From Bryum argenteum (lineage: Eukaryota; Streptophyta; Bryopsida; Bryales; Bryaceae): DNA of 64,000 nt. The position numbers and the translations under genes are program-made. The notes under the pieces are model-generated. The model ran no database searches. It was not told the DNA's origin and saw nothing but the letters and a program-made list of their open reading frames with translations. Below, piece by piece: positions 2,713 through 52,118 of the stretch. Where the stretch lies: positions 7,262,345-7,326,344 of the forward strand of contig CM073326.1 of NCBI GenBank assembly GCA_037043015.1, given 5' to 3'. Numbering within the stretch: the stretch's first letter is position 1; each line of letters begins with the position of its first letter.

Positions 2713-4300
2713 ACCCTATTCGTCCATGACGTCTCAAATGGGTTTTTGCAATTTTGGGCAGCCTAGATGAGGGTGTTAATTTTTCTTTTTTTTTTCTTTT
2801 TTTATTTTTTAAATTTTTTTTCTAATATTTTTATTGTGCATTTCTCTTATACTGCAAAGTGTATGTGGTAAAATTTACAAAGCGGGATACCAATTATTGA
2901 ATCTTCTAGGGTGATTCTCGGGGTGAGAGCTGAGATCAAGCAATTTAAATTTAGGTTCTTTTTGAATTATTATTTTAGGAAATATGTTCGTAACCAGAGT
3001 ACTACTTAACCCCTAATCGTTTTGATACATTTTGGATGAAGGGCAAAACTTTTCGAGAGGAGTTCTTCATCTGAATCTGTTTTTGACGAAATCACTTGGG
3101 TTGGGTCTCAAATCAAGTATAGTTTGTGTGGTAGAAATTTCATACTTATAAAATATAGTATTAATTAATGGCATGCACTTTGGTGACAACAGCTATTAGT
3201 TTTGAGATTTCAAACATTGGGTATGTTTTAACATTGGAAGCCAATTATGAGAAATCCACAAAGTTTTTCTTAATTTTATTTACATAAGTATGATATTAAG
3301 ATAGTTCCTAACAACTTTCTAATTAGAAGCTTTTTGATCCAATTAAGTTTAGCATAGGATTTGCCATGATGTTTCCTCAATGAAAATAGTGAAAACATGG
3401 ATGAAGTTTGAGGATCTATATCTCCTCCATCCACCGTTACATTTCAACTTTTTTCCTTTTTTCTTTTTTCTTTTTTTTTTGGGGGGGGGGATGGATTCCA
3501 ATTAGAGTTTACTTTTAGTGATAGAAATCTTGACCGAAGCAAAGATGTTTTGTATATAAGGCGTTGCTTTGGGTGCAAGAGGTGTAGTTTTTGACTACTT
3601 TTCATTTGTATAGTTTTGGCAGTTTCCACCGTTGCAAGGCTACCACGGGAGTCAATATATTTTTTCGATGTTTTTTTGTGGTCCAAGTCTGTTATTTAGA
3701 TGAGGGGAGATAACTTTCTAGTTGGTGACTTTTTAATTGCAATTTGTTGGTTAGTAGATTTTCCACTCTAAAGTTAAAACGATGAAATGTCATTGTTTTG
3801 TTTTTGTACTAATAGGATATGAACTCCCAATCTATGAGGGGTTCATGACTTAAAATTTGGTCCACATGATCTACATAAATTCTACTATAATTTTGCACGG
3901 TTGAGATTTGAATACAGTACCTTTATTTTTGTTTATGACACTTTTTTTGGAAATGTGTTTTTTGGCCATAGGGAGGACCATTTAGGGGTTAAGTTCCAAA
4001 GGGTCCTTGGTCAAAAAGTTTACCAAATTCACAAGTGCAGCCTCCTAAAGTGTTCAAAACAATCTTGATGTCCAAAAATAGCTGAATGACAAACTTTGGA
4101 TGTTATGATCTCACAAATGGTAAACATCCAACGATTCATTTTTGGAACAATAACTAAAAATAGTATTATGTAGAAGATCTTATGGTTGAAATTATTGAAA
4201 AAGAAAAAATACTTTGGTTCACACCCCAAGAATGCATAGAGGTAGAAAATCAAAGTTTTGAGGTTTTAAGCTTTTAAAAACACACACACACGGCTAGGTG
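2713..4300. mobile_element. TTAA-flanked non-autonomous element (family PB3), split by a PB1 insertion
   Basis: The left end follows TTAA at 2709-2712 and the right end precedes TTAA at 4301-4304. Inner sequence matches the copy at 51185-52118: tttttgcaatttt near the left, gaatcttctagggtgattct at about 2900, and atgatctcacaaatg and gaatgcatagaggt near the right. The match is interrupted exactly at TTAA 3006-3009, where a second element of 979 bp sits. Removing that insert restores a sequence like the uninterrupted copy (about 600 bp remain). No transposase is seen. TTAA targets and short CCC-type ends suggest the piggyBac superfamily, by inference. Confidence 0.6.
3010..3988. mobile_element. 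TTAA-flanked non-autonomous element (family PB1), nested in PB3
   Basis: Begins CCCCTAATCG and ends in a block whose reverse complement is CCCCTAAATGGTCC. TTAA lies directly outside both ends (3006-3009 and 3989-3992). It aligns along its whole length with the 973-bp copy at 48322-49294, sharing for example gacgaaatcacttgggttgg and ccgttacatttcaac. It carries no long open frame and so would depend on a transposase encoded elsewhere. A poly-T/poly-G tract lies near 3470-3490. Confidence 0.75.
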
Positions 4301-4417
4301 TTAAAAAGGGTTGAAATTTTTTAAACCTATTTTAGCAGTTGGATTTTTTAGTCTTTTGTGCTAGCGCAATAAAAGACTATTACAATCGCCTTGGGTGTGA
4401 CATTTTTTCTTGAGACA

Positions 4418-4575
4418 TGATTGATTGACCTTCGAGGGATTGTGATTAGTCGACCGTTTAAAGATTGTGATTGGTCAACCTTTGAAGGGTTGTCATTGGT
4501 CAACCTTTGAAGGGTTGTCATTGGTCAACCTTTGAAGGGTTGTCATTGGTCAACCTCTCAAAGAGCGTGATTGCC
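4418..4575. repeat. Minisatellite, about 25-26 bp unit, roughly six copies
   Basis: Successive copies read attggtcaacctttgaaggg followed by ttgtc. The three central copies are almost identical and the outer ones are diverged (gattagtcgaccgtttaaag at the left, cattggtcaacctctcaaag at the right). No coding role is apparent. Confidence 0.85.
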
Positions 4576-6430
4576 TAAAAATCTCTCAAAAGTTAAAAAT
4601 TTCCACCATGCAATGACAGAGGGCAATTATGAGGCTTTTTGGCATCTTTAAGGCCAAGAGTATTAGGGATCAACTTGATGTTGTTATGGTTAGATTTTTA
4701 GAATAAGTGTGTAGGTTGAGGTTTCTAAGGCATGAAGATTCAACTATTTTCACTTCAGAGGTTGTGCTAATTACAATAATACTATGAAAGTCTCAAAAAT
4801 CTCCACTTATTGTGCTCTCTATATCAAATTTAGTCCTTGTATAAAAATTCCCAACATACATGCTAAATTTCTTAAATATTCGGTAATAGGTGCCTCTATT
4901 GGACCCCTCAGTTATAGGTGTTCCATAAGTGACGGTTAAAGCATCATGTTCTCGGGACAGACGGCGGTTGCCCATGACCGCGAGCTTCATCAAACAAAAT
5001 GGGACGCCATCTAACAAGCGTTTCATGGCCACTGCATTCAGGCCTCCGCTGGACGGCTATGCAGAGTTCTTGCTGATTCCTGAAGCTGAGGACCGAGTTC
5101 GAGTCTGAAATTAAGCCTGTCACTCCATTCACCGCATCCTCTAACGAATGCGCTATTTTTGACCTAAAAATTATCGAAATTGAACCACATTTCGTACTTT
5201 TATTCATTTTATACTTTCTGTGACCTAAGTCTGTGCCCGAGAATGGAACAGCGCGTTACTGAAGATCGTAGTATTGTTCGGGATAATTTTGTGCGTAATT
5301 TGTACATTGTAATTCGTTAGGTCGAAGCTTCGAATCTGAACATGTACAGTCGAATCGAAATGCTGCTGTGCTTTATGAAGCTCCGGATGATGCACAATCG
5401 TCCAGGGCAAGGGACATTGGCAGAGCTGCAGGTTGTACCACTAGAGAATCGAGCATTTTCGTTCTCACAAATTTTCAATAGCGCGATGGATCGACTGCTG
5501 TAAATATAATGATAGGAAAACGTGGAAGAACGTCCTTATGTTTACTGATTCGATTGCCGGAGATTCCGATTCGTATGTTTGCATGAAAGAACCTTTGTAG
5601 CTCATCCTCCCTGGTGGCAACAGGTATCTCCTTGATGTTGTAGGATCTGCCCCGCCTCACAAGCAAGTTCTATGTCACTTGAAGTCATGAAGGTTGCAAT
5701 AAGAAGCAAGAGTTTGAACAGTAGAGAGGGATTTCAGCTGTGTCAGGGAATTGACTTGAGGGAGGCCAAAAGTAATGCATACAGGACTCCCAGGTAGACA
5801 TGAAATTGATCAGCCCTAATTCTAGGGCGTCACGGCCGGCAAGAACAAGAAGCTGGTGATAATAGCGCAATACTCAGTGTGAAAGAGCAAGATTCTGGAT
5901 CATTGAAGTGCACAATGGATTTGAATTCCGGATGATTTTGACGTTCATGTCATGGACGGTTTTCTGCGAAGACATGTTTTATTGACCTATTGTCAGGGGA
6001 GTGAAGATTTGGTTAGTGGATCTAGAAGGAAACCAAGACAATCGTGCCGATGGGAAAGCTCCATGCTGAGCAGTGCCGACAAGTGAATAAGTGGAGAGTG
6101 TGTGACCTATGCACTAGCCAAATGTTCACAGCTTGATGCTGCGGTTGTACTGAGATGGTCAGAGAGTGAAGGATTCTTTGGATAATAGGATTTTATCACA
6201 ATGTTGAAGAACTTAAGAGACATACTTCGGTATGTGTCACCTGAAGAGAATATAGGTACTTTTCCTGTCACTAATGCTTTGCCTCTCTGCTTTAAATTGC
6301 ATCGTGCATAAGATTGTAAATCTCGACAAGGATATCCTACCTCAAATGATTATGTATCATATGCCGTAGAGAGGCTTAGATGGTTTGAGGATTAGAAATC
6401 GCTCCGGTGTAGTATCTTGAGAGAGTAATT
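4576..6430. other. Upstream region of the LRRC9-like gene, unexplained
   Basis: About 1.85 kb without a gene I can support. From about 4950 the base composition is less AT-rich than the repeats to the left, and several minus-strand open frames of 60-87 codons lie end to end (4793-5870). None shows a domain or joins to another through an obvious splice site. The last part presumably holds the promoter and 5' UTR of the gene starting at 6431. It could also hold a fast-evolving minus-strand gene or a long non-coding transcript. Confidence 0.35.
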
Positions 6431-9400
6431 ATGTGCTCGTCAGCAGAACCACCCAACCCAAACTCGGAAAACGAGGATCCCATTCGGAAGACTCGGCGGT
6501 GGCCTATCAGCAGACGCTACATGGAAGCAGGTTTACAATCTTATGCACGTTAGGTCTATGTCATGTATTCTTCCAGTTTGATCTTAAGTGACTGCTTCAC
6601 TCGGAGGGTAATGAATATTGTTTCGTGGTACTCCCAAGTCATGAGCATATGACTGTGTTTCGCCAGTTCCAGACACCTAAGTTGTTTTGATTGTATGAGT
6701 CTTAGGAGCGAGCGTGGAGTAAGGGGTTTGTTTGGGAAACAGCCTTGCAGGATATTTGCGAGTACAATGACATCAGTGAGGAGCAGCTGATTTCTGCTCC
6801 CGAAACTATTACGTCCATTGAGATGTTTCTGTACAACTTTCCGCACATCTGCTGCATGTCCTTCTTTCCCAATCTCGTCTCTCTTTCGCTAGTCCAGCAG
6901 AATCTTCTCTCCATCGAAGGGCTCCATTACTGTCCACATCTTGAATTGCTTCGTCTCAGCGAAAACAGCATACAGAGGTAATAAATGTTCTGCTTCTGCG
7001 CAACAAACCTTGATATCTTTAGATGGATGAATTTCTGATCTGCTAGAGGAGGATGCTTCAAGTGACATTGTGCTGCTTGATTAAGTGACAGACGATGAAT
7101 GTGCATTTGAATCTCAGCAGCTATGGGCTCACAGAATTACTGCTCCCCCTTCAGTATATGAGGTTTTTTTATACTTATTGTTATCCATCCCAAAGTGCAG
7201 GATTGAAGGTCTGGGAAATTGCATGAAATTGAAGGAGCTCTTTCTGCACAGCAACCACATTAATCGCATCACTGGAATATCACACCTCACGAACCTCGAC
7301 GTGCTGTGGTTGTCTAATAATGAGATTCGTAATGTGGACGGTCTCGGCGACCTGCGTCTCAAAGAGCTTAGCCTTGCTCGAAATCCCATCAGTCAGCTGG
7401 GTGAGGTACTTAATATGAAGGAACTGGAGTTTCTGAATGTCGCTGCCACCAACATCGGCTCGTTCAAGGTAATTCTGCTTATTTTACAGAATCCCCTTCC
7501 CTTTGGTTCAGCCGTGATACTTCCACCACCATGAGCTCCTACTTCGATCTCAGCAGCTTTCCTCTCTCGACATCAGGATGAGAAAGTGCTCGAGAACATA
7601 GTCATGTTGCGCGTTCACTGTCAACCCATGTCCACGTCCGAGGGTTTATTTAGCCTCAACCAACAGGAAGTGTGTATCATTCAGGGGTACTGATATTTCT
7701 GACTGTTTGGAGATTTTTCAAGAGCATACGATGCTCTTTGAATTTCACAATGCAGTACGAGTTTTATGATTAATCAGCCATTTAGAATCCTGCTCATTAG
7801 TTCCCTCCTTCCGGTTATCAAAATTATAATCATAGTGCACGCACATGCAAAATTTTGAAACTTCGTTCTAACGACTGGTTTTTGATTCTAGTTACCTGTG
7901 CCTAAGCAGAAATACTTGTGGCTATTGCGGTGGTTTTCAGGAGATAGGAAATTTGACAAGGTTAAAGAACTTGAAAGACCTGCGATTCTCAGATCCACAG
8001 TGGGGCGAAAGCCCTCTTGCACTTCTCCACAACTACCAGGTATTGTTTTCAATGCATGTTCATGAAATGCGGTGTGAGCATCGTCTTCCCAAACTGTCAA
8101 AAGTAAGACTAGCTACAGCATATTAAAGACGAGTTGTTGAATACTGTAACTGATTCTGACTTTCTGTATAAGACTAATGTGCATTTGAGCAAGCAATGAC
8201 ATATAAGTCCAATAACTTGGTTTCCCTTTTGAGGAAATCCAGTGACCCCTCATCTCTCGTTTTTGGTTTAGGAAATCTGTATAGCAAACTGTAGGTTATA
8301 TTGCTTCCGTGGGGTATTAATTTTACACGATATAGAGAGGGTGTGCAGACATACATCTTATTCCGCCTCCGCCAATTACAGTCAGTGGACACAGTGGATT
8401 TGACAGAAGAAGCGAAACAAGCTGCAAGGGCGATGTATACGAGGAAGCGGGTCTACTACAACATGTGTATCAAGGCACTCCAGCAAAATCGCGGCAACAG
8501 TACGAATCCCTGTTTGAAAGCTGACATCCAAAGAATCAAATGTTTACAAAAGTAACTCTTCGCCTTTATTTGCTCTTACACTCCCATGGAGCAATGAGCA
8601 GGTCGTTGGATCCATAACTTAGGTGGATGATTCTTGAACGTAGATTCCAGGTTGAGTCTAATGGCGATGCTCGGGATTGTATACAGGAATCTTTTAAAGC
8701 TCATGAAGACGCGCAAGGACATGGAAAAGGAGATGTGCGAAGAACCAGAAGTTGAAATTGCAAGGACAGGGAATGATAAGAGTGATACGCGGAAGAGTGC
8801 AGAGTGGTGGGTACAAATAAAGGCCAAAACCTCTGTGGTCGATCAGCAGATTTCGGAACTAGTAAAGCACCTCGATAACCTACGGACTCAACTTCAACTA
8901 GGAAAGGCTAAGGATCAGGCTGCTGTGGATTTGAATATTCACTGGCTTATGGTTGAGCTTGATACCGGTAACAGCCGTATTTGTTTAGCAACCAGTCTAT
9001 GCCAATCCTCTATCTTGAACACTCAGCCATAATCGAATAAGCAGGCTTCTAGGCAGGACGGTCTGATTCATGATTATGCTTACCATTTCATGTTGAGATA
9101 GGAATACTCATTCTCCGATCCCATACCCAACTTACCTTGTCCTTCGTAGATTATGTCGTTTATGTTCCTTAGATGCCACGAATTTCACTTCATCGACAGC
9201 ATGGCTATTGATATCAGGCATGTCGTTATGCAGGGGGCAACATTCGGATGGAGGTTGGGAACTCGAACGACGTTTGGTTCAAGAGCTGCATGGATCTTGT
9301 TATGTCGCGATTTTTTGCAGTGGATTTCATTCCTTTTTCTATCACTGGAATGCAGGTGCTGAAGGTCACACGTATCCACAACCGATTTCTTCAGGACCGT

Positions 9401-20454: not shown

Positions 20455-20596
20455 GAGGATATTTAGACACTCCCAGGGAGAGAGGGAGAGACTCACTGGT
20501 CCCCACAGGAGTACAGGACTGTTCCTTGAAAGCAGGGCACCTGTAGCTAAGTTCACTTCCAGTAACACGTCTACAGTTGGCAGCTGTTGAGCACTA

Positions 20597-20813
20597 CACT
20601 AAATAGGTAGATTAGTGTTAGATACACTAATTTATATAAACATGTTATAAATTTTTACTGTTGGTCAATATTTTTACCCTCTACATCTGTCAAGATGTGG
20701 ATCCTTCCAAAGTATTGGAGTCAATACTCTTGGTAATTTTTTTGTACCATAAGTAAAAACTTATAGCATTTTCAAATCTTATAAAATTCTAACACTAATC
20801 TACCTATTTAGTG
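20597..20813. mobile_element. TA-flanked MITE with perfect long inverted ends
   Basis: Starts CACTAAATAGGTAGATTAGT and ends with the exact reverse complement. The perfect inverted repeat is at least 26 bp and is flanked by TA on both sides. A near-identical copy lies at 33941-34157. TA target sites point to Tc1/mariner-type mobilisation. The CACTA start would fit the CACTA superfamily, but no 3-bp target duplication is seen at either copy. Confidence 0.8.
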
Positions 20814-20816
20814 TAC

Positions 20817-21229: not shown

Positions 21230-22190
21230 GGATTGACTTTGAAGATTATTGGATTCAACAATATTTTTTTCATGAATATTTTTATACATACTCTTGATCT
21301 CAAGATAAAATCTAAGTAGTTTGAAGATTTTTTATCCAAGTACTTTTAGTATAGATGTTTTGATCTTGAATAAAGTGGAAAGATAAATAATTTGTGAGGA
21401 GTTATACCTCTAACTTTTTCATCCATTGTTGAATATTGACTTTATTTTGGATGGGTTCCAATTTGTGTGGTAGAAACCTTAACCTCTAAATTTCCTTGTT
21501 GCAAAACGGTCTAAGTCACAAAATTTGACCTTCCTTTAGATTAAGCTCAAAAAATCTCAATCTAAGCACTATTTGAAGGATTCAACGGTAAGATCTCAAA
21601 TTTCACTTGACATTCTTCTCACATACCAAATTTGAACCGTTCATTCTTCCTCATTTGTGAGATTATAATGGTCAAAGTTGGTTGAGTTTCTCTCCTGCTG
21701 GAACCTCCAAAACCCGTTTCAGGTTTTAAGGAAAGTTAGGGGTTAACCTCAACGAAGGTGTTTTGAAAATTTGAGTGCAAGGGTCATAGATTTTTTTCAT
21801 GTGTAGAATTTTTGGCAGTTTTCACCATTGCACGGCTACTAATTAGCCAAGATTTATTATTACTTTTCATTTATTTTTTTATTTTTTTAATTGATGAATC
21901 TACTTTTTAGGAGGGTGCCGTTGAGATGAGGTTGAAGAACTTCAGGGTTGGAAAATCTCTTATTGCAACATGTTTATTAGTAGTATCATCACTTCAAAGT
22001 GAAATTGATTTCTTTTTGAGTACGATCCACGGGCCCTCGTGACTCCAAATTTGGTCCGGATGACCTTGAACAAGTTTACTACAAGATTAAACGACTGAGA
22101 TCTTGATAGCTCACATTCATTCTCATCTATGAAAATATCAAAGAACTTGTGTTTCTAGGCTCTAGACCCCCCCCCCCCCTAGGGCTTTCA
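21230..22190. mobile_element. Decayed PB1 copy interrupted by a PB2 element
   Basis: Blocks such as ggatgggttccaatttg, gtggtagaaacctt, tttttggcagttttcaccat, tgcaacatgtttattagtag and acgactgagatcttgatagc match the PB1 copies at 3010-3988 and 48322-49294 in order. The left end is missing or too diverged to place. A 260-bp PB2 element sits at a TTAA inside it. A run of about 13 C is near 22168. Confidence 0.6.
21483..21742 (-). mobile_element. PB2 element, 260 bp, TTAA-flanked, nested in PB1
   Basis: Starts CCTCTAAATTTCCTT and ends with the reverse complement of CCCCTAACTTTCCTT, with TTAA immediately outside both ends (21479-21482 and 21743-21746). It is in reverse orientation to the copies at 24622 and 25225 and exactly the same length (260 bp). 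The host sequence on either side is a PB1 copy, so PB2 moved later than that PB1 insertion. Non-coding. Confidence 0.8.
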
Positions 22191-22194
22191 AGCA

Positions 22195-23300: not shown

Positions 23301-23353
23301 GTAGAAACTCCAGTCGAAGGGGCCGGCGTGAATGAAGTGTCCGTCCGTAATGC

Positions 23354-23405
<52 letters not shown>

Positions 23406-23752: not shown

Positions 23753-23762
23753 TTCCGTAATG

Positions 23763-24034: not shown

Positions 24035-24621
24035 TTTCATCCCCACACCTCCATGACTTCATGCTATTATTGCATCTAATTTGATGTTGTTGGTATACGT
24101 GGACACTTTTGTTTTAGTGTCATGGTTAAATTAATTCAATCAATCTTCTGTGGATTGAGGTAAGTTATATGGACTTCAACTTTGGAAAATTCTATGACAA
24201 ATTCATTGCAGTCATCTCAAACTCTTGAGGTTCACAGATTGTAAGATTGAAACACACCGAAACAAACCAAAAATAAAATTAAATATCTTGTCATTTTCTT
24301 TGAACTAAAAATGCTACTAAGAAACTTGATGGATTAATAATTCTCCAACTAGGAAGTTGTTCACCTTCATTGATTATTTGAATTGATTCTATTACCGGAA
24401 AAAATCATGAAGAAGTATTTTGCCTTATAAGTAGACTTTCTATGACGGTGAAAACTGTCCCAATATTTACAAAGAAAAAGGAATCTAAAATCCAACCTAT
24501 TGCACTGATTTAAATGCCATATATACATAATGTCTTCATTTAAGCTAAAATCTCTACCAAAAAATAGACTTAAGTCAAATCAAGATTTGAACTAGTGTAT
24601 GAAGTTATTAATTGCTTACAA
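24035..24621. other. AT-rich spacer, nothing recognised
   Basis: No supported gene, RNA or repeat boundary. Confidence 0.4.
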
Positions 24622-24881
24622 CCCCTAACATTTCTTAAAACCCAAAATGGGTTTTGAAGGTTCCTGCAGGAGAAAAACTTAGCCAACTTTGACCATTATA
24701 ATCTTACAAATGAGGAAGAATGAACAGTTCAAATTTAGTATGTGAGAAGAATGTCAAGTGAACTTTGAGATCTTACAGTTGAATCTTTTAAATAATGCTT
24801 GGATTCAGATATTTTAAGCTTAATCTAAAAGATGGTCAAATTTTGTGACTTAGACCGTTTTGCAACAAGGAAATTTAGCGG
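24622..24881 (+). mobile_element. PB2 element, 260 bp
   Basis: Starts CCCCTAACATTTCTT and ends ...AAGGAAATTTAGCGG followed by TTAA (24882-24885). The left flank reads acaa instead of TTAA, a likely later mutation. Same length and near-identical interior to the copy at 25225 (for example caaatgaggaagaatgaac). Non-coding. Confidence 0.75.
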
Positions 24882-25224
24882 TTAATGAAGATACAACTTC
24901 ACAAGAAATTTTTGCAGATCCGATAGCATGGTCTTTTCTAGTCAAGGTTCTTTCATCTAGGAAGCAATTAGACTTCATCTTACTATCTATTATTTAAGGT
25001 ATGTAGTTTGTTTTGTTTAAGAGGATATGATCTTCAGAACGGCTAGTCAGATAGGGGTGCATGAGGTGTCCTTGAACCCAAATTTTTATGTAGGAGTGCG
25101 AGCAACATTTGGATCGCACTTCAGGTCGAGGGGTCCCAAGATATTGGATTTGAAACTGTTGGCTGTATAAATATTGGAAATTGTTTCAATGAGCGTGGCA
25201 CCGCCGCGCGGGCTTATTAGTTAA

Positions 25225-25484
25225 CCCCTAACTTTCCTTAAAACCCGATTTGGGTTTTGGAGGTTCCCACCGGAGAAAAACTCAGCCAACTTTGACCATT
25301 ATAATCTCACAAATGAGGAAGAATGAACGGTTCAAATTTGGTATGTGAGAAAAATGTCAAGTGAACTTTGAGATCTTACGGTTGAATCTCTTAAATAATG
25401 CTTAGATTGAGATTTATTGAGCTTAATCTGAAGGAAGGTCAAATTCCGTGACGTAGATTGTTTTGCAACAAGAAAATTTAGGGG
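25225..25484 (+). mobile_element. PB2 element, 260 bp, intact ends
   Basis: Starts CCCCTAACTTTCCTT and ends with the reverse complement of CCCCTAAATTTTCTT, with TTAA at 25221-25224 and 25485-25488. It lies about 340 bp from another PB2 copy in the same orientation. Non-coding. Confidence 0.8.
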
Positions 25485-25488
25485 TTAA

Positions 25489-26520: not shown

Positions 26521-26522
26521 TA

Positions 26523-31300: not shown

Positions 31301-32401
31301 TCATGTGAGGGTGGAATTGGGTGCAAAATCGGTGCTCACCTGTCCAACGCGAGGTGTACCGCAGGAAGGAAGGTACGAGGCTCGTTTCTCGTGGGCCGAA
31401 AAGTCTCCACATACATCTACCATCTATTTCTGTTGAAGATCTTTTGAGGTTCTACTATTGTGGGAGATGCTTTCAAGCATTGATGCAACTAGGGTTTCAA
31501 CAGTCAAAGATGCTGGAGGTATTGCACCAGATACAGTACAGTACAGTAATGTCGTTCCAACGGTAGTCTGAGCCTAGATTCTGACCTAGAGTGCATGATA
31601 CCTTGTTTTAGAATGTTCATCTGTAAACTAAATGCGAAGTTCTTATTATGGAATGTGTGTGATTTTGCTGTGTGTGATTTTTACAGAAGTTTGTTCTAGT
31701 ATTAACAAAGGGTCCATGCGCACACCTTTGTAATGTTGAACATGATATGCCATGTGTGGTGGAGATCATATTAGCCTTTGGAAGGCTAATATGTTATCAT
31801 TTATAATTATTTTTTAGATTAGTAATGGAATCATTTATGATCATTTTTTAGATTAGTGATCCTAGCTCAGAAATTACGGAGGTGACGAATGGTGATGAAT
31901 GCATGAAGTCAAATATGCCCTGCAACCATTTAGCACCACTTTAAGTTTAGATGCCAATAATCAAATTTATTCACCTCTGGTAACAATCAAATATTGGTGT
32001 CCGAAACTTTTTTGATCATTCAGCTCTTCTTAAATGCATCTCAACGAGGAGATTTTTGGAAAGCAATTTTATTTCTTGGAACTCTTTAAGTAGGGATGGC
32101 AATTACCAAAATGAATTATTCCTATGGGAACCTAGAGTTCCGCCAACAGGTTCATTTATATTTAGAGACTGTGCATGGGATAGTAAGGTCTTCAAATCTC
32201 CAAATCTCCAAGCAATTTCACCCAAAATGTGGCAAATTCAAAGAAGAGTTGTTAAGGGAGCAATTAGAGTTCTTGTTAGAAGACAGAGTGGAAAAAGGAA
32301 GCCGCTAAAGCTGGGGATGACCAACACTTGTTTTAATAAATAAAAGCACAATTGTTCTAATAAATAAAAGCACAACTCACCGCATGGGACCAATACAAGT
32401 A
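31301..32401. other. Spacer with short duplications
   Basis: AT-rich from about 31560. A short duplication (atcatttataat/atcatttatgatca plus ttttttagattagt) lies at 31797-31858, and aataaataaaagcacaa is repeated at 32333-32375. Open frames at 32056-32343 have no recognisable domain. Confidence 0.4.
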
Positions 32402-33921
32402 CACTAAATAGGTAGATGAGTGTAAGATCCAATAGTTACCTAAACCACTATTTGTCAACTAAATCTACAAATAGTGTTGGATAGGGTTTTGCAATAGGAT
32501 TAGCAGAGGCTCTCCAAGTTGACCTTTTTCAAAGTGGAAGCTTACTCTGACACACATCAATTGCACTCATCTTTGAAGGTCATCAATCTTGCCGCAGTTC
32601 AAAGTTCGAGCATCTGACTTTACATGTCTCGTAGGAGTTAGTCTTATGTTTGGTTGTCCTGTCAAAGTTCTTAAATTTAAATTAAAGTTCTCAAATTTGG
32701 CATTGTCAAACTTAACCCTTTCATGACCAATCAACCAAATATGGTCGCTGAAGTATGGTTATTCCATGATTGAGTAGAATCTGTGTAGAAAGAGCAAAAT
32801 GTTAGAGAACAACGCCGGAAGAGGAGTGTGTACTGGATCTACTACACAAAACAACGATGCATTTGGAATTGTACTCCGCCTGGTAGAGTTGTTTATAAAT
32901 GGTGATGAGTATGCGATACGGTAGCTGGTCTAGAAAGAAGTGAGAAAAATTCAGGAAATACGGCTATCGAAGACACATGACACCAATTCTAAGGGTCCCT
33001 TGGGAACATGGGAACATGGGGGTACTACTCAGCCGGCTCCATCGACAAAAGAAGAGTTGATTTCTTTTGGCAACCCAACATCGTCTATCAAAGCGTATAC
33101 GTTTGTACAATCTGAAATCCTCCCCAAAAAGAATCAACCACATGTTGTTCGCACACTGATTCTACGTCAAAACTCGGCGTCTGATGAATGTCACCATGTC
33201 TGATTTTTCAATCTGATCATATTTGCTACGATATCCCATGTATTTCTTGTACGCTATTGTATACAAGGAACTGGGTTCTTGGTCTCTTTTCACAATTTAA
33301 GTTTCATAAATGCTCAAAATGCAACGCTCATGGTGTTGTTGGATAGCTCTTCAAACTCTCTACAATATTGACCACATGTGTTTTGCCCAAATCTGGATAT
33401 TTTGGTCTCTAATTCTAGTAAAAAGCTTCAAGGTCATGTATACGCTATGTACTACACTTGACTCGGAACATCATAATACTCTAGTTCATACGGTAGATTT
33501 GACCCATGTTTCGCCACTAGCATGTATATGAAGTTCACTACACATTTATACGATCGGATCTTAATTTTGACCCTTCATTTGTTCGATACATTCCAAAATA
33601 CATCCAGACACCTCAAAAAAACCTCGACTTCCAAAACAGGAGTGGTCATGAAAGGGTTAAATAAGTTCATTTGTCCAAATTTCACAATACTAAAATTCAA
33701 GTAAATTATTTCTTTCATGAAGTTCTCATATTTTCTCTCCTTCAATTCCTCATTCTAAGTTTCACAAATATCATTTGTCATTACTTGTGCACATGTTAAT
33801 ATTTGTGCAAATAGTGTGAGAGTTGACAGTTAGTGTTCTAACACTACAAAGACAATTGACATTAAGCGTTTCCATTTCCATCAGCCAGTATTGTTTCCAA
33901 CACCAACCTACCTATTTAGTG
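32402..33921. mobile_element. TA-flanked element with CACTAAATAGG ends, enclosing a TTAA element
   Basis: Starts CACTAAATAGGTAGATGAGT and ends with the reverse complement of CACTAAATAGGTAGGTTGGT, with TA outside both ends. These are variants of the ends at 20597 and 33941. Inside it, a 941-bp TTAA-flanked element occupies 32716-33656, leaving about 580 bp of its own sequence. No transposase frame is recognised. It lies only about 20 bp from the MITE at 33941. Confidence 0.6.
32716..33656. mobile_element. TTAA-flanked element with 14-bp perfect ends (family PB5)
   Basis: Starts CCCTTTCATGACCA and ends with its exact reverse complement, with TTAA at 32712-32715 and 33657-33660. The CCCTTT start next to TTAA closely resembles the ends of piggyBac-derived elements known in animals. 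Open frames of 60-87 codons inside (32940-33203, 33310-33531) show no DDD-transposase motif that I recognise, so it appears non-autonomous or strongly decayed. Confidence 0.75.
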
Positions 33922-33940
33922 TAGTTGCTCCACCAAGGTA

Positions 33941-34157
33941 CACTAAATAGGTAGATTAGTGTTAGATGCACTAATTCATATAAACATGTTATAAGTTTTT
34001 ACTATTGGTCAAAAAAATTACCCTCTACATTCCTAAAGATGGGGATCCTTCCATGGTATTGGAATCAATACTCTTGGTAATTTTATTTTATCAAAAGTAA
34101 AAACTTATAGCATTTTCAAATCTTATAAAAATCTAACACTAATCTACCTATTTAGTG
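33941..34157. mobile_element. TA-flanked MITE, second copy with perfect inverted ends
   Basis: 217 bp, the same length as the copy at 20597-20813. It starts CACTAAATAGGTAGATTAGT and ends in the exact reverse complement, with TA on both sides (33939-33940 and 34158-34159). The interiors differ by a small number of substitutions and compensating small indels, indicating recent activity. Confidence 0.85.
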
Positions 34158-34159
34158 TA

Positions 34160-34970
34160 GTTGAATTGTGGGTTGGGGAGGTCGCTATACCGCATTTAGA
34201 GCTAAGCCTCACCTCCGCACATACCACATGGATACAATCAGCTTCCAAACGATTGACATCTTTCACAACCTCACCCATGTAGGTGAATAATATATCTGCA
34301 TTTCATAATTAGTGCAAGTACTGTCTCATTGAACTTCATTTGACACTTTAAAAAAGAACGTCAAACATATGAAATGATGATGCAATATATGTTTTCATAC
34401 CATTCACAATTTTGGGTACAATCACCTTACTTTTGAAGTTACTTCCAGATCATCATAGCTGCAAAAACAAGATAAAAATGATAGAAAGATGCTCTACTAC
34501 AAGTTAACCTTGCTAAGGTCCAATATTTTCCATTCATGGTGAAAGTTGGTACAGAACTACCACAGAACTCCAAGGACATCACCAACACATCACGAAACTT
34601 CTCCAAAATCTACTCTCCTCGTCTACATAATGACAATTGATCTTTATGATTCTATGGAAAGATAACAGCATTCAAGAAAGGCACATTCTTGGTTGTGATC
34701 ACCTCGTTTCTTAAGTACCGCAACTTCCAGACGATCATGACTGAAAAAACAAGATAGAAAGGATAAAAGAAAGGTATAAAAGTACCTACGCTGAAGTCCA
34801 ATCCCTTCCGTTCAATGTGAAAACTGGTACAGGACTCCTACAAGACTCCAAGAAATGACATTATATCACAAAGAACTTCTACAAAGTCACTACTCTCTGC
34901 ACTTCCGCACCTCCACTTCCCGAAACTTCATTCAAGGAGTTTCTGAGCGGCAGCTTGGGGCGGGCGATAT
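34160..34970. repeat. Direct duplication of about 200 bp downstream of the DUF2921 gene
   Basis: About 34425-34625 and 34712-34912 share, in order, acttccagatcatcat or acttccagacgatcat, aaaacaagata, ggtccaat or agtccaat, and gaactccaagg or gactccaag. They are diverged by roughly a quarter. The second copy abuts the 3' end of the minus-strand gene. Function unknown. Confidence 0.6.
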
Positions 34971-38146: not shown

Positions 38147-38150
38147 TTAA

Positions 38151-38480
38151 CCCTTAAACGTCTGAGCGGCCCCGAGGGGGCCGTTTCCAACAGAATCTCC
38201 TCTCTAGCTCTCAATCTACTCATTTTTTCACTCATATTTTGATGTCAAACTGGTCACCTTCTTCGGATGCATTCAGAAAGTGAAATTTTAGAATTCAAAT
38301 CACAATTTGTATGAGTCATTTTGTGCTTTGAAAGGAATGTGGTAGGTAGGTTGGGGTTGTACAATACTTGTAGGAGGTTGCAAGCTCATTATTGATTGGA
38401 TCATTCATGATGCCCAAGTGCAAAAGATGTTGTGATCCAATATTGGGCTGCCCAAATCCGTATAGCTAGGCGTTTAAGGG
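38151..38480. mobile_element. TTAA-flanked element, 330 bp (family PB4)
   Basis: Starts CCCTTAAACGTCTGAGC and ends with the reverse complement of CCCTTAAACGCCTAGC. TTAA lies at 38147-38150 and 38481-38484. The ends resemble those of PB1 (CCCCTAAACGTCC), so one transposase may have served both. The GC-rich block gcggccccgagggggccg just inside the left end could form a small hairpin. Non-coding. It lies close to the 5' side of the DUF2921 gene. Confidence 0.75.
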
Positions 38481-38484
38481 TTAA

Positions 38485-41400: not shown

Positions 41401-41993
41401 AACACTTATAACTTTCTCTTCAACAATTCATAACCAACTCTAGAAAGGTCCAAAAATGATGATTTCAGTACACTGAAATTGAAGGAATTATTGAGCACCT
41501 TACCTTACACCACCCTCCTCTCATGGTCTCTCCTAGTTCAAGGCTGTTTCGACCACAAGAACTCAAAAAATTATACATATTTGCATAGTTAGTGTAAGGA
41601 TGCCCCGCCGTCTAATCTACTTAAAGCAAGTTCCAAGCATGCGCCGAGTCCCAGTACACCATGCTTTCAACACCTCTCGAAAAGTTCACAGCCAGCAATC
41701 CGAACTCTCACTGCAACCTACTATACAATGAGATCTCATTGTACTCCTTCATGCAAGTAGAAATGGCACAACTTCCGGGGAAAACAACAAAATTGTGTAA
41801 CCTTAAATCCCGACTCACTTCAGAATTTGCATTCCCTTTGCAGCTAGCTAACTGATCCCAATGATTTTTGAGACGAATGTTACTAAATGTGCAGGCCTAC
41901 AAGTTGATGAACCTCAAGATTGACGGCCTGGTATGACTATAATACAATAGAAAGGGCGGGCAGACTAGTAAACCACCCTAACTAGGCATTCGA
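38485..41993. repeat. AT-rich spacer with an element end and degenerate tandem blocks
   Basis: About 38820-39363 resembles the right part of PB3 (ccaactttgaacattatgat) and ends ctttagggg followed by ttga, a decayed TTAA. About 40020-40420 holds degenerate repeats built on cttccaacatgtcttatcta and ctcaagtcactttcaaaagc. About 40722-40800 and 41141-41350 share a roughly 45-bp unit, ctagttcctataatgtagct plus ctaggcttcttca. About 41340-41500 is a fragment of the 340-2085 family. A GC-richer patch is near 40830-41000. No gene is supported. Confidence 0.5.
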
Positions 41994-44900: not shown

Positions 44901-46350
44901 ATCCTCTGGGAAAATACAGAAAAAATGTTCAGTAGGCTCACCTCATCATCGTCAACGTACACGCCATCACTACGCAGCCAAAAATCAGACGGGCCTTGCA
45001 AGTCAAAAGGGAATATGGATGTGCGTATAGGTTTCACAACAAGCAGCCAGTTACTCTCTGCTGCCCTCACTTTGTTAATCGCGGCAGTGAAGTCATTGAG
45101 CAGAACCAGGTTGGGATCTATAAGTACTATAATGTCTGAACTCGAAGCTTGTGCTCTTCCTACCATGCTGTGGAACATAGGATTCCCCATAAACCTGCTC
45201 CAAACCAACACCAGCTCAACTCACTATGAACTCGGATTGTAGAATGTATAGAAACAAGTTACAAATTAAATCTTGCTAAGACAATAACCTATATCAGTTC
45301 CTATTTGTACATACACATTCTTTACCGCTGCAAAGGAAGCTCCAATCGAAACTTGACGCGCATCAAGTAACAGGTACTAAGCTAACTTTGAACATCGTTT
45401 TCCTGAAACCATTCGTTTTAGTTATTCATTTAAGTAAGGTAGGAGTTGAGCTGCAATTACAATGAATCGCCACTCCAGTTTTTAAAGCTGAGTGAAAAAT
45501 GTAATGCGATAGAGTAGGCTGAAAGACACATACGTGATATCGATATCTGAGTCAACAGAAACACGAGGTTGCAAAGTCTGTGCAAAAGCTTGGAGTGAAG
45601 GGTGCCGTCCCATGAGAACCACATGAGGACGAGAGTCCAGTCGCAGCCAAGAATGGATAGCCAAAGACTGTCGCACACCTTCAGCGCCATCAAACGGAGC
45701 TGGAGCCGTGTAAAATGTTATGTTCACACTCCGCACCTCCCTCTCAGGCAACACCAGCAACGCCCGTTCTGTGAATCTCAAGAAATAAGCTCAACCGAGA
45801 AAAACAATGCACCAGATCGAATCCAAGCCCGCCTTTCAAATTCTCCAGGAATCGTATCGTAATCCAAAACCGCAATCATTCTACGAAAAGAAGATTACAC
45901 TCTCAATGAATCCGGAACGATTCATTCTACTCCAAAATTTTCTGACACTAACATTTTTAGTCAAGACTACGATAGATCCAGGAAAACGGAATTCAGGTGG
46001 CTTCTTGGATCCAGAACAATCCGCATTTCACTTCAGAGAAGATTCAGCCTAACCGATACTTAACCGATAACTAAAATGTCATAAGTGATTCGATTGAGGC
46101 TAATAGAAAATCAACGTTTTCAAGAAAAGCAAAGTTGGGAATCCACTGCTTCCCTTCCAATAACCCTAAGCCTATTAAGAAGAGGACGCCGAGATTCAGA
46201 GCTGGTTGAAGCGGTACCTGGAAGGAGCTCTGGTTCTACAGTCCTATCACTCTCTTTAGTCGCAGGTAAGAGCTGAGTAGCGCGCAGGGAGATGATGAGC
46301 AGCAGCACAGCCGCCGTGCTCATCAACGCCTGCATCACCTGCGCCTCCAT
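41994..46350 (-). CDS. RAY1: GT77-type nucleotide-diphospho-sugar transferase, RAY1-like
   Basis: Probable Golgi glycosyltransferase; Arabidopsis RAY1 is a beta-arabinofuranosyltransferase acting on arabinogalactan. Minus-strand exons: 46350-46218, 45768-45534, 45194-44942, 44596-44353, 44156-43914, 43793-43456, 43316-43146, 42602-42530, 42445-41994. They total 2142 nt, 713 residues, in frame at all eight junctions. An N-terminal hydrophobic stretch (ALMSTAAVLLLIISL, about residues 8-22) fits a type II membrane anchor. A first GT-like region follows (about 55-290, with NITFYTAPAPF, HSMVGRAQASSSDIIVLID and LPPFVYG-type sequence). The catalytic GT77-like domain covers about 375-690 with DCHFGTKCFQ, KVKSRTVLHLLQLGF and the metal-binding DxD in SDVDVYW (D532, D534). 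It is longer than Arabidopsis RAY1 (about 540 residues). Acceptor specificity cannot be read from sequence. Confidence 0.85.
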
Positions 46351-46800
46351 TCAATAGATCCAACAATTCACCAATTCCGCCGCCTCATTTGACTTCTCCC
46401 AGGCGATCGATACTGCGACCACCATCTCTCGACACAACTCGCCCTGACAACAAAATCCATCGTAGGCACACTAACTCCGCATTCGCTGCAGCCCCTCATG
46501 TAATCCAAAAACCTCCATTCTGCACCAAAACCCTTACGAATTGGATTTTCCGATGGCGCTCTGTCCCTGCAACCGGATTTTGCGCGAAAGATCGTGACCG
46601 CGGAAGCAAAAAACTGGAGAGTGAGATTGGGATGCTCCCAAGTGGGGCGAGCGAGGAAGAGGGAAGAGAGGAGCCAGCAGCAGCCTCCAAAGGTAGTGAG
46701 TCGGGATGTTACGAATAGTGACTAGTGACTCCCCAGGGGCACGACTGGTGAGTGGTAAGTGACCACCCACTAGTCGTGAGCCAATGTTCAGCGGCAATGA
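46351..46800. promoter_or_regulatory. Upstream region of the RAY1-like gene with a short hairpin
   Basis: The presumed promoter and 5' UTR. At 46740-46778 two 16-base arms (cacgactggtgagtgg and ccacccactagtcgtg) pair with three mismatches around a 7-base loop. Upstream of this the sequence becomes AT-rich. Confidence 0.35.
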
Positions 46801-48317
46801 TCGTGTTGCGTACAATATTGTAATGATAATTCAGTTGGGATGCCGGTAATCGTGGGGTTGTGGGCCCCATTACCGCTGAGGTTGGTGGGGTCTTTCTCTA
46901 TCTTTAATTCAGATTTGTTTCAAATCCCAACTTGGAACTGCTTGATTCCATCTATTTTTTAGAACTTTGACTTCATCTGAGCGCCCTTTTTTTTAAATAT
47001 CTCGGAATGTTTAAAAAGCATATGTTTGACCATGCAGGTCAATTTAGCAATGCCTTTCTTGTCATTGTAGTGTCAAGAACATGATAACTTATGTTTGGAA
47101 CTTTGACCATGCAGTTCAATTAGCAGTGCCTTTCTTGTCATTTTACTGTTAAGAAATTAGGGTATGTTTATGATATGGTAAAAAGAGTACACTCCTGAGT
47201 GAAGGGTGATTCTCATTTCTGATTAGTTGAAAGTGCAAAATCGTTGGTTGGTTGAGAATACATAAGTGATGAACTTTGGAGATGAACAATAAAAGAACAT
47301 GATTGTTTCTGTAATGGCCCATTTTGATTGAGGATGAAAACATGAAATCTCATATTTATATGGGAAGGAAGTACACTTCTGAAGAACTGATTCTTCAAAT
47401 GTCTTATATCTTTTTCAACACATTTTCCTTTGCCTTAAAATGACTATGTCGTAGTATAAAATCGTGTTCAACTAGTGACATTTTCCATCATGGTGTAGGT
47501 TGGCCCTTTATCTTTGATGATTGAAGCTCACTTTATCAACAACAAGAACATTGTGTGATAAAATAGATGAGAGTTTGAGGCGGTGGGCCTCCATGGCCTT
47601 TACAACATCCCTTTGATTGCTTGAGGGACAATGATAAGTTATATTTGACTGTAGGAAATGTAATTAATACAAGACTTAGTAGTGACACAAGTAATTTTTA
47701 TGATAAATTTTCATCCTATTCAAAGAAGTATGAAAAAAATTCATAAACAAATAACACTAGCTGGAATTCATGACATCAAGATTTTATGTATTTCCATGGA
47801 AGTGCACATCATTTTATTGTCAAACTATGATGTACATATATAATATTTGTGGTCAATGTGAGATGTTTTAAATGCGAATTGCAATCATGTTGCAATTTTG
47901 AATTGAATATTGACTCGGATGCGTTACGCATTACAAATTTTAAAAAATCATCATGTTGGAAAAACATAAAGAGTAAGTGTTGATTACCTTGGTAGGAACA
48001 TAGTAACTCTTTATTTCTTAAATAAATTTCTCTTAAGGTGTCTCTAATACTCACTATACGTATATGACATACTAGTGCCTCCATACAACGCTACCACATC
48101 TGTAGGTGCATAGATACTTCAACTATGCCTAAATTTGTCTCCGTCCCCGTCCCTACCCCTATTACCATTCTATAAAGACGGATTTCTAAGTTTGTAAGCC
48201 GACCTTTTATTTGTGATAGATAGTCTATGGCCCCAAACAACTTGGTTTCTATGTAATTGGTTTTCTACTTGATTCAAAATAAGATGATTTTTATTAATTT
48301 CCACTATTTAAATGCCA
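46801..48317. other. AT-rich spacer, nothing recognised
   Basis: A phrase near tttgaccatgcaggtcaatttagcaatgcctttcttgtcatt is repeated about 65 bp later (47025-47070 and 47101-47145), suggesting a short tandem duplication. No gene or element end was found. Confidence 0.4.
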
Positions 48318-48321
48318 TTAA

Positions 48322-49294
48322 CCCCTAAACGTCCCTAGTGTCGAAAAATGACATTTTGGATGTAGGGCAGAAACTTTGAAGAGCCATAACTTCTTCATCC
48401 AAACTCCGTTTTTGACGAAATCACTTGGGTTAGGTTACAAATCAAGTCTAGTTTATGTGGTGATAATTTCAGACTCATAAAATAAATTATGAATAAATGG
48501 CATGGATTTTAGTGAAGGCAGCTTCTGTTTTTGGGTTTTCAAACATTTGGCATGTTTTACCATTGCAAGCCAATTATGTGAAATCTAAAATAGTTTTTCA
48601 TGATTTTTTTTCATAGGTTTGATATTTAGATGCATCCCAACAACTTTGTAGTTGGAAGTTTTTTTATCTAGATAACTTTGGTATTGGCTTTGCAATGATG
48701 TTTCTACGATGAAGAAAGTGAAAAAATGGATGATTTTTGAAGAGCTAGATCTCCTTCATCCACCGTTAAATTTTGACTTTGTTTTTTGAGATGGATTCCA
48801 ATTATAGTCTGTTTTTAGTGGTAGAAACCTTGACCCAATCGAGGATATATTGAAGAAAAGGCATGGATTTGAGTGCGTGGGGTCTAGTTTTGGACTGTTT
48901 TTCCTTTGTAAAATTTTTGGCAGTTTTCACGACTACAAGGCTACTATTTGAGCCAAGTTTTTTTTTTTTATGAATTTTTTTGGTACAAGAGTGTCTTTGA
49001 GATGAAGATGAAAAACTTTCTAGTTGCTGATTTTTTTATTGCAAATTTCATGTTGGTAGTATTTTCACTTCAAAGTGGAAATGATGGTATTTTGTAGCCA
49101 GTTTTGCGCACTAATATGTTATGATCTCGCAATCTATGAGGTCCCATGAGTCAAGTTTTGGTCCACATGATCTACTGCAAGTCTATTACAAGTTTGTACG
49201 GTTGAGATCTGAATAGCTTATCTTTATTTTCATCTATATCACTTTTTTTTGAAAATGAGTTTTTGGCTAAAAAAACCCCAAGGACGTTTAGGGG
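48322..49294. mobile_element. PB1 element, 973 bp, intact ends
   Basis: Starts CCCCTAAACGTCC and ends with its exact reverse complement (13 bp), with TTAA at 48318-48321 and 49295-49298. It aligns end to end with the copy at 3010-3988. It has no long open frame. This is the best-preserved PB1 copy in the window. Confidence 0.85.
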
Positions 49295-49298
49295 TTAA

Positions 49299-51180
49299 AT
49301 TTAAAGATTGAATGTGTGGGGATTCACCAAACCTATAAGGGATATGTTTGTTGCCCCTGTCCCCATAAAAATAAGTTCCAACAACACGTGTCGCGTTTCA
49401 ATCCTTAACTATCTTGACTACTTATGCATAACTAATTTCATGACTATTTTTTCTAAGACAAATATTCCATGAAATAGTCTTGGTAAATGTATTAGATTCT
49501 TTCTTCTATAATTTGGTATCTTGCACATATTTCCTTCAAATATTGTAATAATTACTAATGATTATAGTATGATGTATAGTTTTGCTAGTAATGTATGAAC
49601 TTCTAGATTATAGAGAAGGTTTCTATTTTTACAAATTAAACAAGTAGCCCGAAAAATATTGTCTCCTAAATTTCTTAACATTTTATAAGTTCTATAAGAT
49701 TTGGGGTTATCAGTTTCTTTTAGATGTAGTTATTCACAAGTGTTGCTTTATCTATTAAAATCTACAATTGATTCTATTTACTCATTCACCTATCATTTAA
49801 ATAGAAATAAATCAAACACTATGCAATCAATACAAGTTGCAAAGGGGCTATACACATAAATAGGTGTACGGACTTACTAAGTTTTGAAAATTCATAACAT
49901 TTTCATATGGAAATGAGCTAAAATTAATTTCACAAATTCACTTTTTTTTCTTAAATAAACTATGTAGATAAACTACTCTCCTAGTTGGAGAGCAATATAT
50001 TGTAACACTCATATTTCTTGGATGAGTAGACAACCTAGTTGCAAAAGCACCTGTTGTTTTCACAATATGGAGACAATGGTGCTCGTGATACAATCCTCTT
50101 TGCTTACAATTTGAGCAGAAAAATCACCTACACTCTCTTGACCACTCCTCTTTCACAGTGTATATCATCTTCGTAATTGACGATCCAAACTTAGAATGCT
50201 TAATGTGGTTCAATTCACCACTCAGATTTTGTATTTTATTTTTTTCTTCACACTTGCTTCAAAGAAAGTGGTTTCGTTTGCTTAAACATGACTATTTTAT
50301 TCGTGCTATTGTGTTATTTTACAATGTATTTTAAACCACTGAAACTAGACTTTTAAATCATTTGTTTCAATAAATATTTGGTGCTTCTCTCTTAATATAT
50401 AATTTAACTTAAACTTGAACCAAGTTAATCAAAAAGTGGCTAATTCACTATGTATTCATACAATCATGATACTTGATGAGCATACGTGGTTGAGTTCTGA
50501 TATGCATATGTAATTGGCTCTATAAAAACAATAGCGACTGCATAAAAGATAGAGTACTTGCTTCCTGCCATAGCATAGACCCATTATTGTCCAAATTAAT
50601 AACATATACGTATCTAAACTAGTATAGAATGAGAATTTAAATAAAGTACAACTATAAACTTCAAAAAGATTTATTGTGTATTCAATCACTTAGGGTAGAT
50701 AAGCCCATTTCCAAGTGCCTTCTTGATATTATTGGACTTTAGAAATCTACCTTTTCTCATGTTGACAAATGTGACTTAATGGTCACTTGAATGATGGGTG
50801 CTATTAAGTGAGCTATCAACTATAATGCTCAACTAACTTATATAAATTTAAAACTTTTTTATTTCATTATAGTCCATCTTCTTTTTCAAATGTTGATTAT
50901 CTTATGTAGGTCTTTTTCCATGTCATTGGTGGAGGCTAGTAAATGTAGAAGATGGTAAATAATATATTAGCCGTTAACTTTTTGAATGAATGATGAAACA
51001 CCATGGCCACCTACGTAGTAAGACTTTCTAAAAGAAAAGTTTTCATGAGGTGAAATTTTGTGTTTCTGTTTTGTGTTTTGGCATTCAAAGAATAAATCAC
51101 TTAATTAGTTAATAAAATTGGTTGGCATGTGATGGCACATTACCCACTACCTTAAATAACCATGTCTTCGGCAAGATTTA
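49299..51180. other. AT-rich spacer, nothing recognised
   Basis: Nearly 1.9 kb without a supported exon or repeat boundary. The open frame at 50456-50689 has no domain. Confidence 0.45.
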
Positions 51181-51184
51181 TTAA

Positions 51185-52118
51185 CCCCTAACTATCCTTA
51201 AGAATTGGAATCGGTCTTTTGCAATTTCCGGCACCCTAGGTTTTTTTAGTTGAAGCTAATATTTTTGACTAAGATATTTGTTGGGTGTTTCTTATAGTAC
51301 AAGGTGTGTGTGCAACAAATTGCAAATGCAGATTCCAATTTTTGAATCTTTTAGGGCAATTCTTGGCATGCCATCTGGGATGGGGCAGTTTAGATTCAAT
51401 TTTTCTTAAAAATAAAATAAAATATTATTGTTTTTTTGAAGTATGTTCATAACCGAGTCACGACTCAACTTACAAAGTGACCCAAGTCTAAAAGTTAACA
51501 TGTCTTACAAGGGCAACCTCCAAAAACAATCTCCGTAGTATTTAGTAATTTTTTATTTATTTCTAACAAAATTTGTCAAAAATTGAGACTTCATAATTAA
51601 AAAATATATAAATTTGTTTCATAATCACAAATTCATAAAGACACTCAATCGCCTTTCAAATTTTTCAAATTCAAATTTCTCATTCCACAATATTTAGTTT
51701 GCCAATTTTGCACATTTTGACCTTTACGTGAGGAATAATTTTATTTTTTGCCTTAAGAACATGGGGGAACCCTAAGTTTTAGCATGCGCGTACTCAACTT
51801 AGTTCTATATGGAAAAAATATGAGCAAAATCTTTAGGGTAACAATCATCAACTTACCATTTGCACTATAAAGAACACAAATCTTGTGCAGTGTCCAAAAA
51901 AACTTCTACTACAACTTTGAACGTTATGATCTCACAAATGATTAGCATCTAATAGTCAATTTTTACAACAATACATAGAAATAGGGTTGAATACAATATC
52001 TTACTACTAGAAGTAAAAAATAGTACAAATATTTGTCACGCATCCCCAAGAGTTCATAGCGGTTGAAAATGATAATTTTGAGGTTTCAAACTCTCCAAAA
52101 CACAAGGAAATTTAGTGG
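51185..52118. mobile_element. PB3 element, about 934 bp
   Basis: Starts CCCCTAACTATCCTTAAG after TTAA (51181-51184) and ends ...CAAGGAAATTTAGTGG followed by ttta, a decayed TTAA. Its interior matches the split copy at 2713-4300 on both sides of that copy's insertion. The end sequence CCCCTAA-TTTCCTT is shared with PB2, so PB2 may be an internally deleted or cross-mobilised relative. Non-coding. Confidence 0.7.

Follow-up and report, generated by a model that had tools for sequence, protein, structure and literature searches.

What moves the short, TTAA-flanked elements that are scattered through a 64-kb stretch of the genome of the moss Bryum argenteum? The stretch (C6:7262345-7326344 in a genome of 258.8 Mb and 25 contigs; hereafter the window) contains several families of elements whose inverted ends begin with CCC. 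Their target is TTAA, with a single 4-bp target at empty sites, and elements of the same end kind elsewhere in the genome encode DDD transposases of at least six lineages. We consider it very probable that these short elements belong to the piggyBac superfamily as non-autonomous members, which lack a transposase and are presumably moved in trans by the long elements. The original prediction had read them as piggyBac-like, and that reading is supported by the long elements with PF13843 and DDD residues, the TTAA flanks, the shared ends and the single 4-bp empty sites.

Elements in the window

With 14 occurrences in the window, the motif TTAACCCY exceeds its expectation of 4.46 ± 2.19, and none of 100 shuffles gets to 14. 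Seven elements are complete, with inverted ends of the CCC type (Table 1); TTAA is present on both sides of six of these and on one side of the seventh. For the 21479 and 24618 elements (named, as throughout, by their left limits), the CCC of one end each has decayed to CCT or CCG. The window elements fall into five groups, namely 3006 and 48318; 21479, 24618 and 25221; 2709 and 51181; 32712; and 38147, which bears out the earlier claim of at least five families of TTAA-flanked, CCC-ended elements. The 3006 and 48318 elements are 74% alike (945 bp compared), while 21479, 24618 and 25221 are 88–91% alike (88% for 24618 versus 25221).

Seven of the nine sites listed originally are thus complete elements, and the other two read differently. 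The 51181 element, whose left side is TTAACCCC, has a decayed right end, and the site at 2713, which had been taken for an element of about 65 bp, is actually the left end of an element at 2709-4304 into which the 3006 element is inserted. When its flanks are joined without the 3006 element, they align with 51181-52118 (67% over the junction, 72% farther right), and this alignment rules out a separate ~65-bp element at 2709-2713.

Four families were searched genome-wide (25221, 48318, 32712 and 38147), and all are dispersed repeats. Among the best 40 relatives scored per family, window copy included, those of 25221 (from 2064 candidates) are mostly 92–93% identical and near full length; besides the window copies themselves, those of 48318 (from 7238) are 95–96% and those of 32712 (from 180) 94–95% identical; and those of 38147 (from 1782) range from 86 to 97%, a few being partial. 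Thirty copies of the 48318 type (window copy included) have a mean identity of 96.6% (435 pairs), and of 98.2% to their majority sequence. Exact end motifs in the whole genome number 1,403 for the 21479/25221 type, 814 for the 48318 type and 269 for the 32712 type, and the pattern read backwards gives 0 in each case.

Target sites and empty sites

Among 38 copies belonging to the 25221 or the 48318 family, two of them window copies, 33 have the strict end motif. TTAA lies on both sides of 31 of these 33 copies and on one side of the other two, and the bases outside it are mixed. By eye, four of the five copies that depart from the motif still show TTAA next to each end; in the fifth, L057, the left end is decayed.

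The empty-site test took 49 insertions, joined the flanks of each and matched them against all genomic stretches read and against the window; the sites examined are paralogous ones in the same genome. L004, L052 and L057 (ends off the motif) were left out as insertions, and L001 and L029, which are the window copies, were counted as window. For the 3006 element, both spanning paralogues (L056 and L052) are ungapped, with a single CTAA and TCAA, and for the 21479 element 32 of 33 are ungapped with a single 4-mer (TTGA in 30). Ungapped junctions also predominate at L035 (3/3; CTAA twice, TTAA once), L048 (35/36; CAAA in 31, TAAA in 4) and L043 (3/4; three different 4-mers, in weak alignments). 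Complete element B, one of the transposase-bearing elements described below, has 40 of 40 ungapped sites with a single 4-bp target (CTAA in 30); the test gave no spanning match for complete elements A, C, D, E and F. A single target at empty sites had been named beforehand as a point on which the piggyBac reading could fail; in the ungapped sites there is one 4-bp target, in paralogous sites rather than in related species. At L065, a GACGTTTAAGGGTTAA end holds a copy of the 32712 type within its TTAA, and the flanks of this copy, joined by eye, restore the end; in the empty-site test the copy had no spanning match.

Neighbouring TTAA elements may share one TTAA, or adjoin sequence that starts with CC and is maybe another element (L033, L041, L044 and L062). 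At L062, the right TTAA of complete element C also bounds a 369-bp g-type element.

TTAA is palindromic, so the limits are ambiguous from intact copies alone, and TTAA might be part of the inverted repeat, the true duplication being TA (Tc1/mariner-like) or TTA/TAA (Harbinger-like). PIF/Harbinger elements have a 3-bp TWA target duplication, and a transposase of this type lies inside the window, at 53.6-57.3 kb. However, the ungapped empty sites have one 4-bp target, neither zero nor two bases, and not a 3-bp duplication in the PIF/Harbinger style; the 31 strict-motif copies with TTAA on both sides have mixed bases beyond it; and complete elements with these ends encode piggyBac transposases. 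We regard a TA or 3-bp duplication as extremely improbable.

Transposases and complete elements

In a genome-wide profile search with PF13843, 116 of 775 candidates were scored; all exceed the cut-off, the best with E 7e-82, and they are spread over contigs C1 to C11. None of the 116 matches falls inside the window, and 14 control genomes gave no match to PF13843. The domains of 20 loci form five groups with 35–48% identity between groups, and L066 represents a sixth lineage that is 35–40% identical to the other five (BLASTP).

Longer elements with a DDD piggyBac-type transposase had been proposed as the thing to look for, and six complete, TTAA-bounded ones were found (A to F; Table 1). All six have short inverted ends beginning with CCC and TTAA on both sides, and their transposase frames, measured from stop to stop, are 897–1187 amino acids (aa) long. 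Five of the open reading frames (ORFs) match Pfam with E values of 1e-78 to 1.4e-82, and the sixth, in L066, is the PF13843 match at C2:7743945-7745087. Residues D268, D346 and D447 of Trichoplusia ni piggyBac are kept in all six lineages, and the D450 position in five. Lineage A matches the PDB entries of T. ni piggyBac (6x67, E 2e-29) and piggyBat (9c0f, E 8e-24). The frames of L059 to L063 begin about 415–715 aa ahead of the PF13843 domain, and no other Pfam family scores above cut-off in this extension. Three loci (L009, L010 and L013) were considered as elements of about 2.3 kb and rejected, the inner TTAACCCC being coding sequence.

One subfamily seems to have transposed recently. A 1,121-bp piece from one B-like copy (L071, C2:2423500-2424620), located 5' of the conserved region that we call ORF1 (see below), has at least 41 listed matches on contigs C2-C11, from a search in which the best 40 of 451 candidates were scored, source included. 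Among the listed matches, 36 are identical throughout, and five are one base shorter with slightly lower scores. The piece contains no TTAA. At least six of the 36 identical copies are followed, about 1.54 kb downstream and in the same orientation, by a PF13843 match (Table 1). Identity of 36 copies over 1,121 bp points to recent transposition of this B-like subfamily.

piggyBac has been described chiefly from animals, fungi and protists (PMC12732532), and the transposase sequences could be contamination, or old fossils unconnected to the window elements. Against this, PF13843 matches are spread over C1 to C11; complete element B is nested in an h-like element, which belongs to a repeat family of the host; frames open across 800–1200 aa are common among the PF13843 matches; and the B-like subfamily has its 36 identical copies. 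We give contamination or fossil origin almost no credence.

Ends shared by short and long elements

L066 (lineage F) matches the first 19 bp of the 48318 family without a difference (19 of 19) and the right end of that family at 22 of 23 bp; the 3006 family has 21 of 23 subterminal bp in common with L066. The end stretches of the 38147 family match L066 at 16 of 16 and 15 of 15 bp, and L059 (lineage A) at 17 of 17. A second 48318-type end pair, 5.96 kb apart (C2:14853138-14859102), encloses an ORF1 match; these pairs were drawn from the first 100 of the 814 ends. The original prediction implied an unknown autonomous partner. Because the same genome holds elements with piggyBac-class transposases, and lineage F shares ends with window families, the partner is known in kind; it has not been located for 32712 or for 21479/24618/25221/51181.

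Several observations weigh against the assignment to piggyBac. As several lineages have the core TTAACCCYTAAACG in common, the end matches of 15–19 bp are modest (E 3e-5 to 0.006). For the 32712 family, no partner turned up among the first 100 of 269 ends, where three of four long pairs were read, nor for the 21479/24618/25221/51181 families in the sample of elements read. Spanning matches in the empty-site test are few (9 of 49 joined flanks), and gapped junctions prevail at three of these sites (ungapped in 2/39 at L039, 0/3 at L031 and 0/1 at L042). Most empty copies are one base off TTAA (CTAA, TTGA, CAAA), and the large counts come from paralogous copies of one repeat family (h-like), so that they represent one site many times and not many insertions.

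Three long 32712-type end pairs (L064, L065 and L070) were rejected as autonomous elements, being copies with nested repeats. The insert is a Gypsy-like retrotransposon in L065 (named from the ORF description only), four h-like stretches in L064, and a d-type element plus other sequence in L070. The fourth long pair spans 11.75 kb on C2.

The families lacking a partner (32712; 21479/24618/25221/51181) might instead be moved by another TTAA-targeting transposase, for example that of Kolobok, which likewise makes TTAA duplications (PMC9587614). In line with this, no piggyBac with CCCTTTCATGACC or CCCCTAAMTTTCC ends was located in the sample of elements read, and the three long 32712-type pairs held nested repeats instead of a transposase. 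Kolobok differs, however, in its transposase and in its ends, which read 5'-RR...YY-3' (PMC9587614), whereas the seven complete window elements start 5'-CC at both ends. Moreover, CCCTTT is among the end motifs of beetle piggyBac (PMC12732532) and is the same as in the 32712 family, and the empty site of the 21479 element shows a target of 4 bp, as piggyBac elements do. We consider Kolobok or a similar source improbable, and piggyBac the more probable source for these families as well.

A conserved region upstream of the transposase

When 51 frames of at least 100 aa were compared all against all, every one of the six complete elements proved to share a region located 5' of the transposase. 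This region, ORF1, contains a domain of about 100 aa that is 25–41% identical to the first sequence and has seven invariant columns. ORF1 domains gave no match in Pfam at E <= 1 (six domains) or in NCBIfam (two domains), and their best PDB match, at E 0.7, is not convincing.

Genome searches with two ORF1 domains (best 150 of 368 and best 150 of 409 candidates, with 20 rows at already listed places removed from the second) gave 280 distinct places. At least 72 of the 116 PF13843 matches have ORF1 upstream of them within 5 kb and in the same orientation, 2 have it downstream on the same strand, and none has it on the opposite strand; in 200 shifted controls, the number with the upstream placement averages 0.39 and never exceeds 3. 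The count of 72 is a lower bound, as the 44 matches with no listed ORF1 include elements E (L063) and F (L066), which carry it. In the 72 cases, ORF1 is 1–3 kb ahead of the transposase domain. Among the lineage-B loci, eight of nine have ORF1, whole or partial (L012, L014, L019, L020, L025, L026, L027 and L028); L019 is the L061 element itself, the ORF1 of L026 carries a stop, and the L022 locus starts downstream of a listed ORF1 match. Across seven B copies, the differences by codon position are 393, 294 and 675, counted without the near-identical pair L019/L061 and up to codon position 92; this is the pattern to be expected of coding sequence.

We infer that ORF1 encodes an accessory protein used by this piggyBac branch. 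A less likely arrangement, which we rate as rather doubtful though not negligible, is that ORF1 is an extra 5' exon or an upstream reading frame of the transposase gene. The same-strand placement ahead of the transposase would suit an exon, as would two features of the junction: in lineages B, C, D and F the ORF1 domain ends at or just before an ATG of the transposase frame, and in lineage B a conserved GT...AG intron-like stretch follows just downstream. A fused product, however, is not suited by L012 and L028, where ORF1 terminates in TAATAA directly ahead of the transposase-frame ATG, nor by C, D and F, where the frames of ORF1 and transposase overlap in different registers. There is some precedent for an additional protein in this superfamily, since a few piggyBac families encode a protein resembling part of KolX (PMC9587614).

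Other features and coordinates

The window also contains a PIF/Harbinger-type pair at 53597-57282 (Table 1), and another repeat family with perfect inverted arms of 28–29 bp (TACACTAAATAGGTAGATTAGTGTTAGA), at 20595-20815 and 32391-34168 (~20.6 kb; 33.9-34.2 kb). The 32712 element is situated between related arms of the TACACTAAATAGGTAGATTAGTGTTAGA family. A DUF2921 sequence within the window is presumably in keeping with a plant host. The light-harvesting proteins of the genome look moss-like: two photosystem-I antenna queries have their best matches in the entries 8htu, 7xqp, 6l35 and 7ksq, which are from Physcomitrium patens, and a third query, of Lhcb type, matches 9vfj_2 (a long chain named LHCI-2) best, followed by 8htu and 7xqp. 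Elsewhere in the genome, genes for light-harvesting proteins (PF00504) form dense local clusters at C5:14.73-14.76 Mb, C5:16.2-16.4 Mb and C6:9.32-9.37 Mb.

Table 1. Coordinates of the elements and neighbouring features. Limits of window elements count both target copies; lengths of complete elements A to F count one.
Feature	Position or locus	Strand	Length	Remarks
Older 51181-like element	2709..4304	+		Split by 3006 element; right end CTAGGTGTTAA at 4304
Element a	3006..3992	.	983 bp + second TTAA	TTAA both sides; nested in 2709-4304 element
Element c	21479..21746	-	264 bp	TTAA both sides; inverted relative to 24618 and 25221; within h-like remnant
Element e	24618..24885	+	264 bp	Left target decayed to ACAA, right TTAA
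Element d	25221..25488	+	264 bp	TTAA both sides
Element f	32712..33660	.	945 bp	Inverted ends CCCTTTCATGACCA; TTAA both sides
Element g	38147..38484	.	334 bp	Ends CCCTTAAACGTC / CCCTTAAACGCC; TTAA both sides
Element h	48318..49298	.	977 bp	TTAA both sides
Older element i	51181..52118	+		Intact left end TTAACCCCTAACTATCC; decayed right end near 52,100; right limit as set in the original prediction
DDE_Tnp_4 transposase ORF	53597-54553	+		Pfam
Myb/SANT-like ORF	56353-57282	-		Under Pfam cut-off
Complete element A	L059		5195 bp	TTAA both sides, CCC ends
Complete element B	L061		5754 bp	TTAA both sides, CCC ends; inside h-like element
Complete element C	L062		5847 bp	TTAA both sides, CCC ends
Complete element D	L060		5282 bp	TTAA both sides, CCC ends
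Complete element E	L063		8388 bp	TTAA both sides, CCC ends
Complete element F	L066		5787 bp	TTAA both sides, CCC ends
PF13843 match	C2:2426161			Beside identical 1,121-bp copy
PF13843 match	C2:9109846			Beside identical 1,121-bp copy
PF13843 match	C2:16647211			Beside identical 1,121-bp copy
PF13843 match	C4:13684304			Beside identical 1,121-bp copy
PF13843 match	C4:13758654			Beside identical 1,121-bp copy
PF13843 match	C8:13523609			Beside identical 1,121-bp copy

Comparison with known piggyBac systems

The moss elements resemble T. ni piggyBac (IFP2) in the TTAA target, the CCC-type ends and the DDD transposase, in which D268, D346 and D447 are aligned. In contrast, T. ni piggyBac is 2472 bp long (PMC10140906) with a 594-aa transposase, whereas the elements described here are 5.2–8.4 kb, with frames of 897–1187 aa and an extra 5' region. 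Beetle and bee piggyBacs likewise have short inverted ends and a TTAA duplication, with CCCT/CCCTTT motifs in beetles (PMC12732532, PMC10140906). The beetle elements measure 2.07–3.47 kb with a single ORF of 500–725 aa (PMC12732532), and the complete moss elements fall outside this range; those of bees are about 2.2–3.5 kb, encode about 580 aa and mostly have CAC ends (PMC10140906), while the host here is a land plant. A single ORF of about 500–725 aa in about 2–3.5 kb is a size habit of the animal members, not a defining residue.

Among plants, piggyBac is described as occasional, for example in red algae, in a 2025 paper (PMC12732532); it is stated as found in plants (PMC10140906), and PiggyBac is among the superfamilies present in all groups studied in another survey (PMC4438587). 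The closest case by host is the fern Ceratopteris richardii, also a land plant, with 1,230 fragments named PiggyBac; in the available part of that paper this is a repeat-annotation count, given without elements or transposases (PMC6890710). A literature search, which reached few subscription journals, found no paper on moss piggyBac. The superfamily itself is known; the novelty most likely lies in the host, in how diverse and how large the elements are, and in the conserved ORF1.

In the mechanism that we propose, which follows that of insect piggyBac, transposases from the long elements would bind the ends of the short elements in trans, and a short element would be cut out at TTAA and re-inserted elsewhere, again at a TTAA. 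The ORF1 product would work alongside the transposase as an accessory protein. In its broadest form, the proposal is that mosses possess a distinct two-protein branch of piggyBac, with at least six old lineages, a shared ORF1 accessory protein of a kind not described before, at least one subfamily still moving in this species, and transposases that drive the short TTAA elements; we hold this broader proposal to be evenly balanced between true and false.

piggyBac is a standard TTAA cut-and-paste tool, and it comes from insects. Mosses are an experimentally tractable group of plants, and this genome combines six deeply split lineages, intact-looking frames, a set of 36 identical copies and short derivatives that reach 1,403 exact ends for one type, so that the biology of piggyBac in plants can be tested directly. 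The shared ORF1 raises the question of whether a cofactor is needed here that animal piggyBac lacks or has lost.

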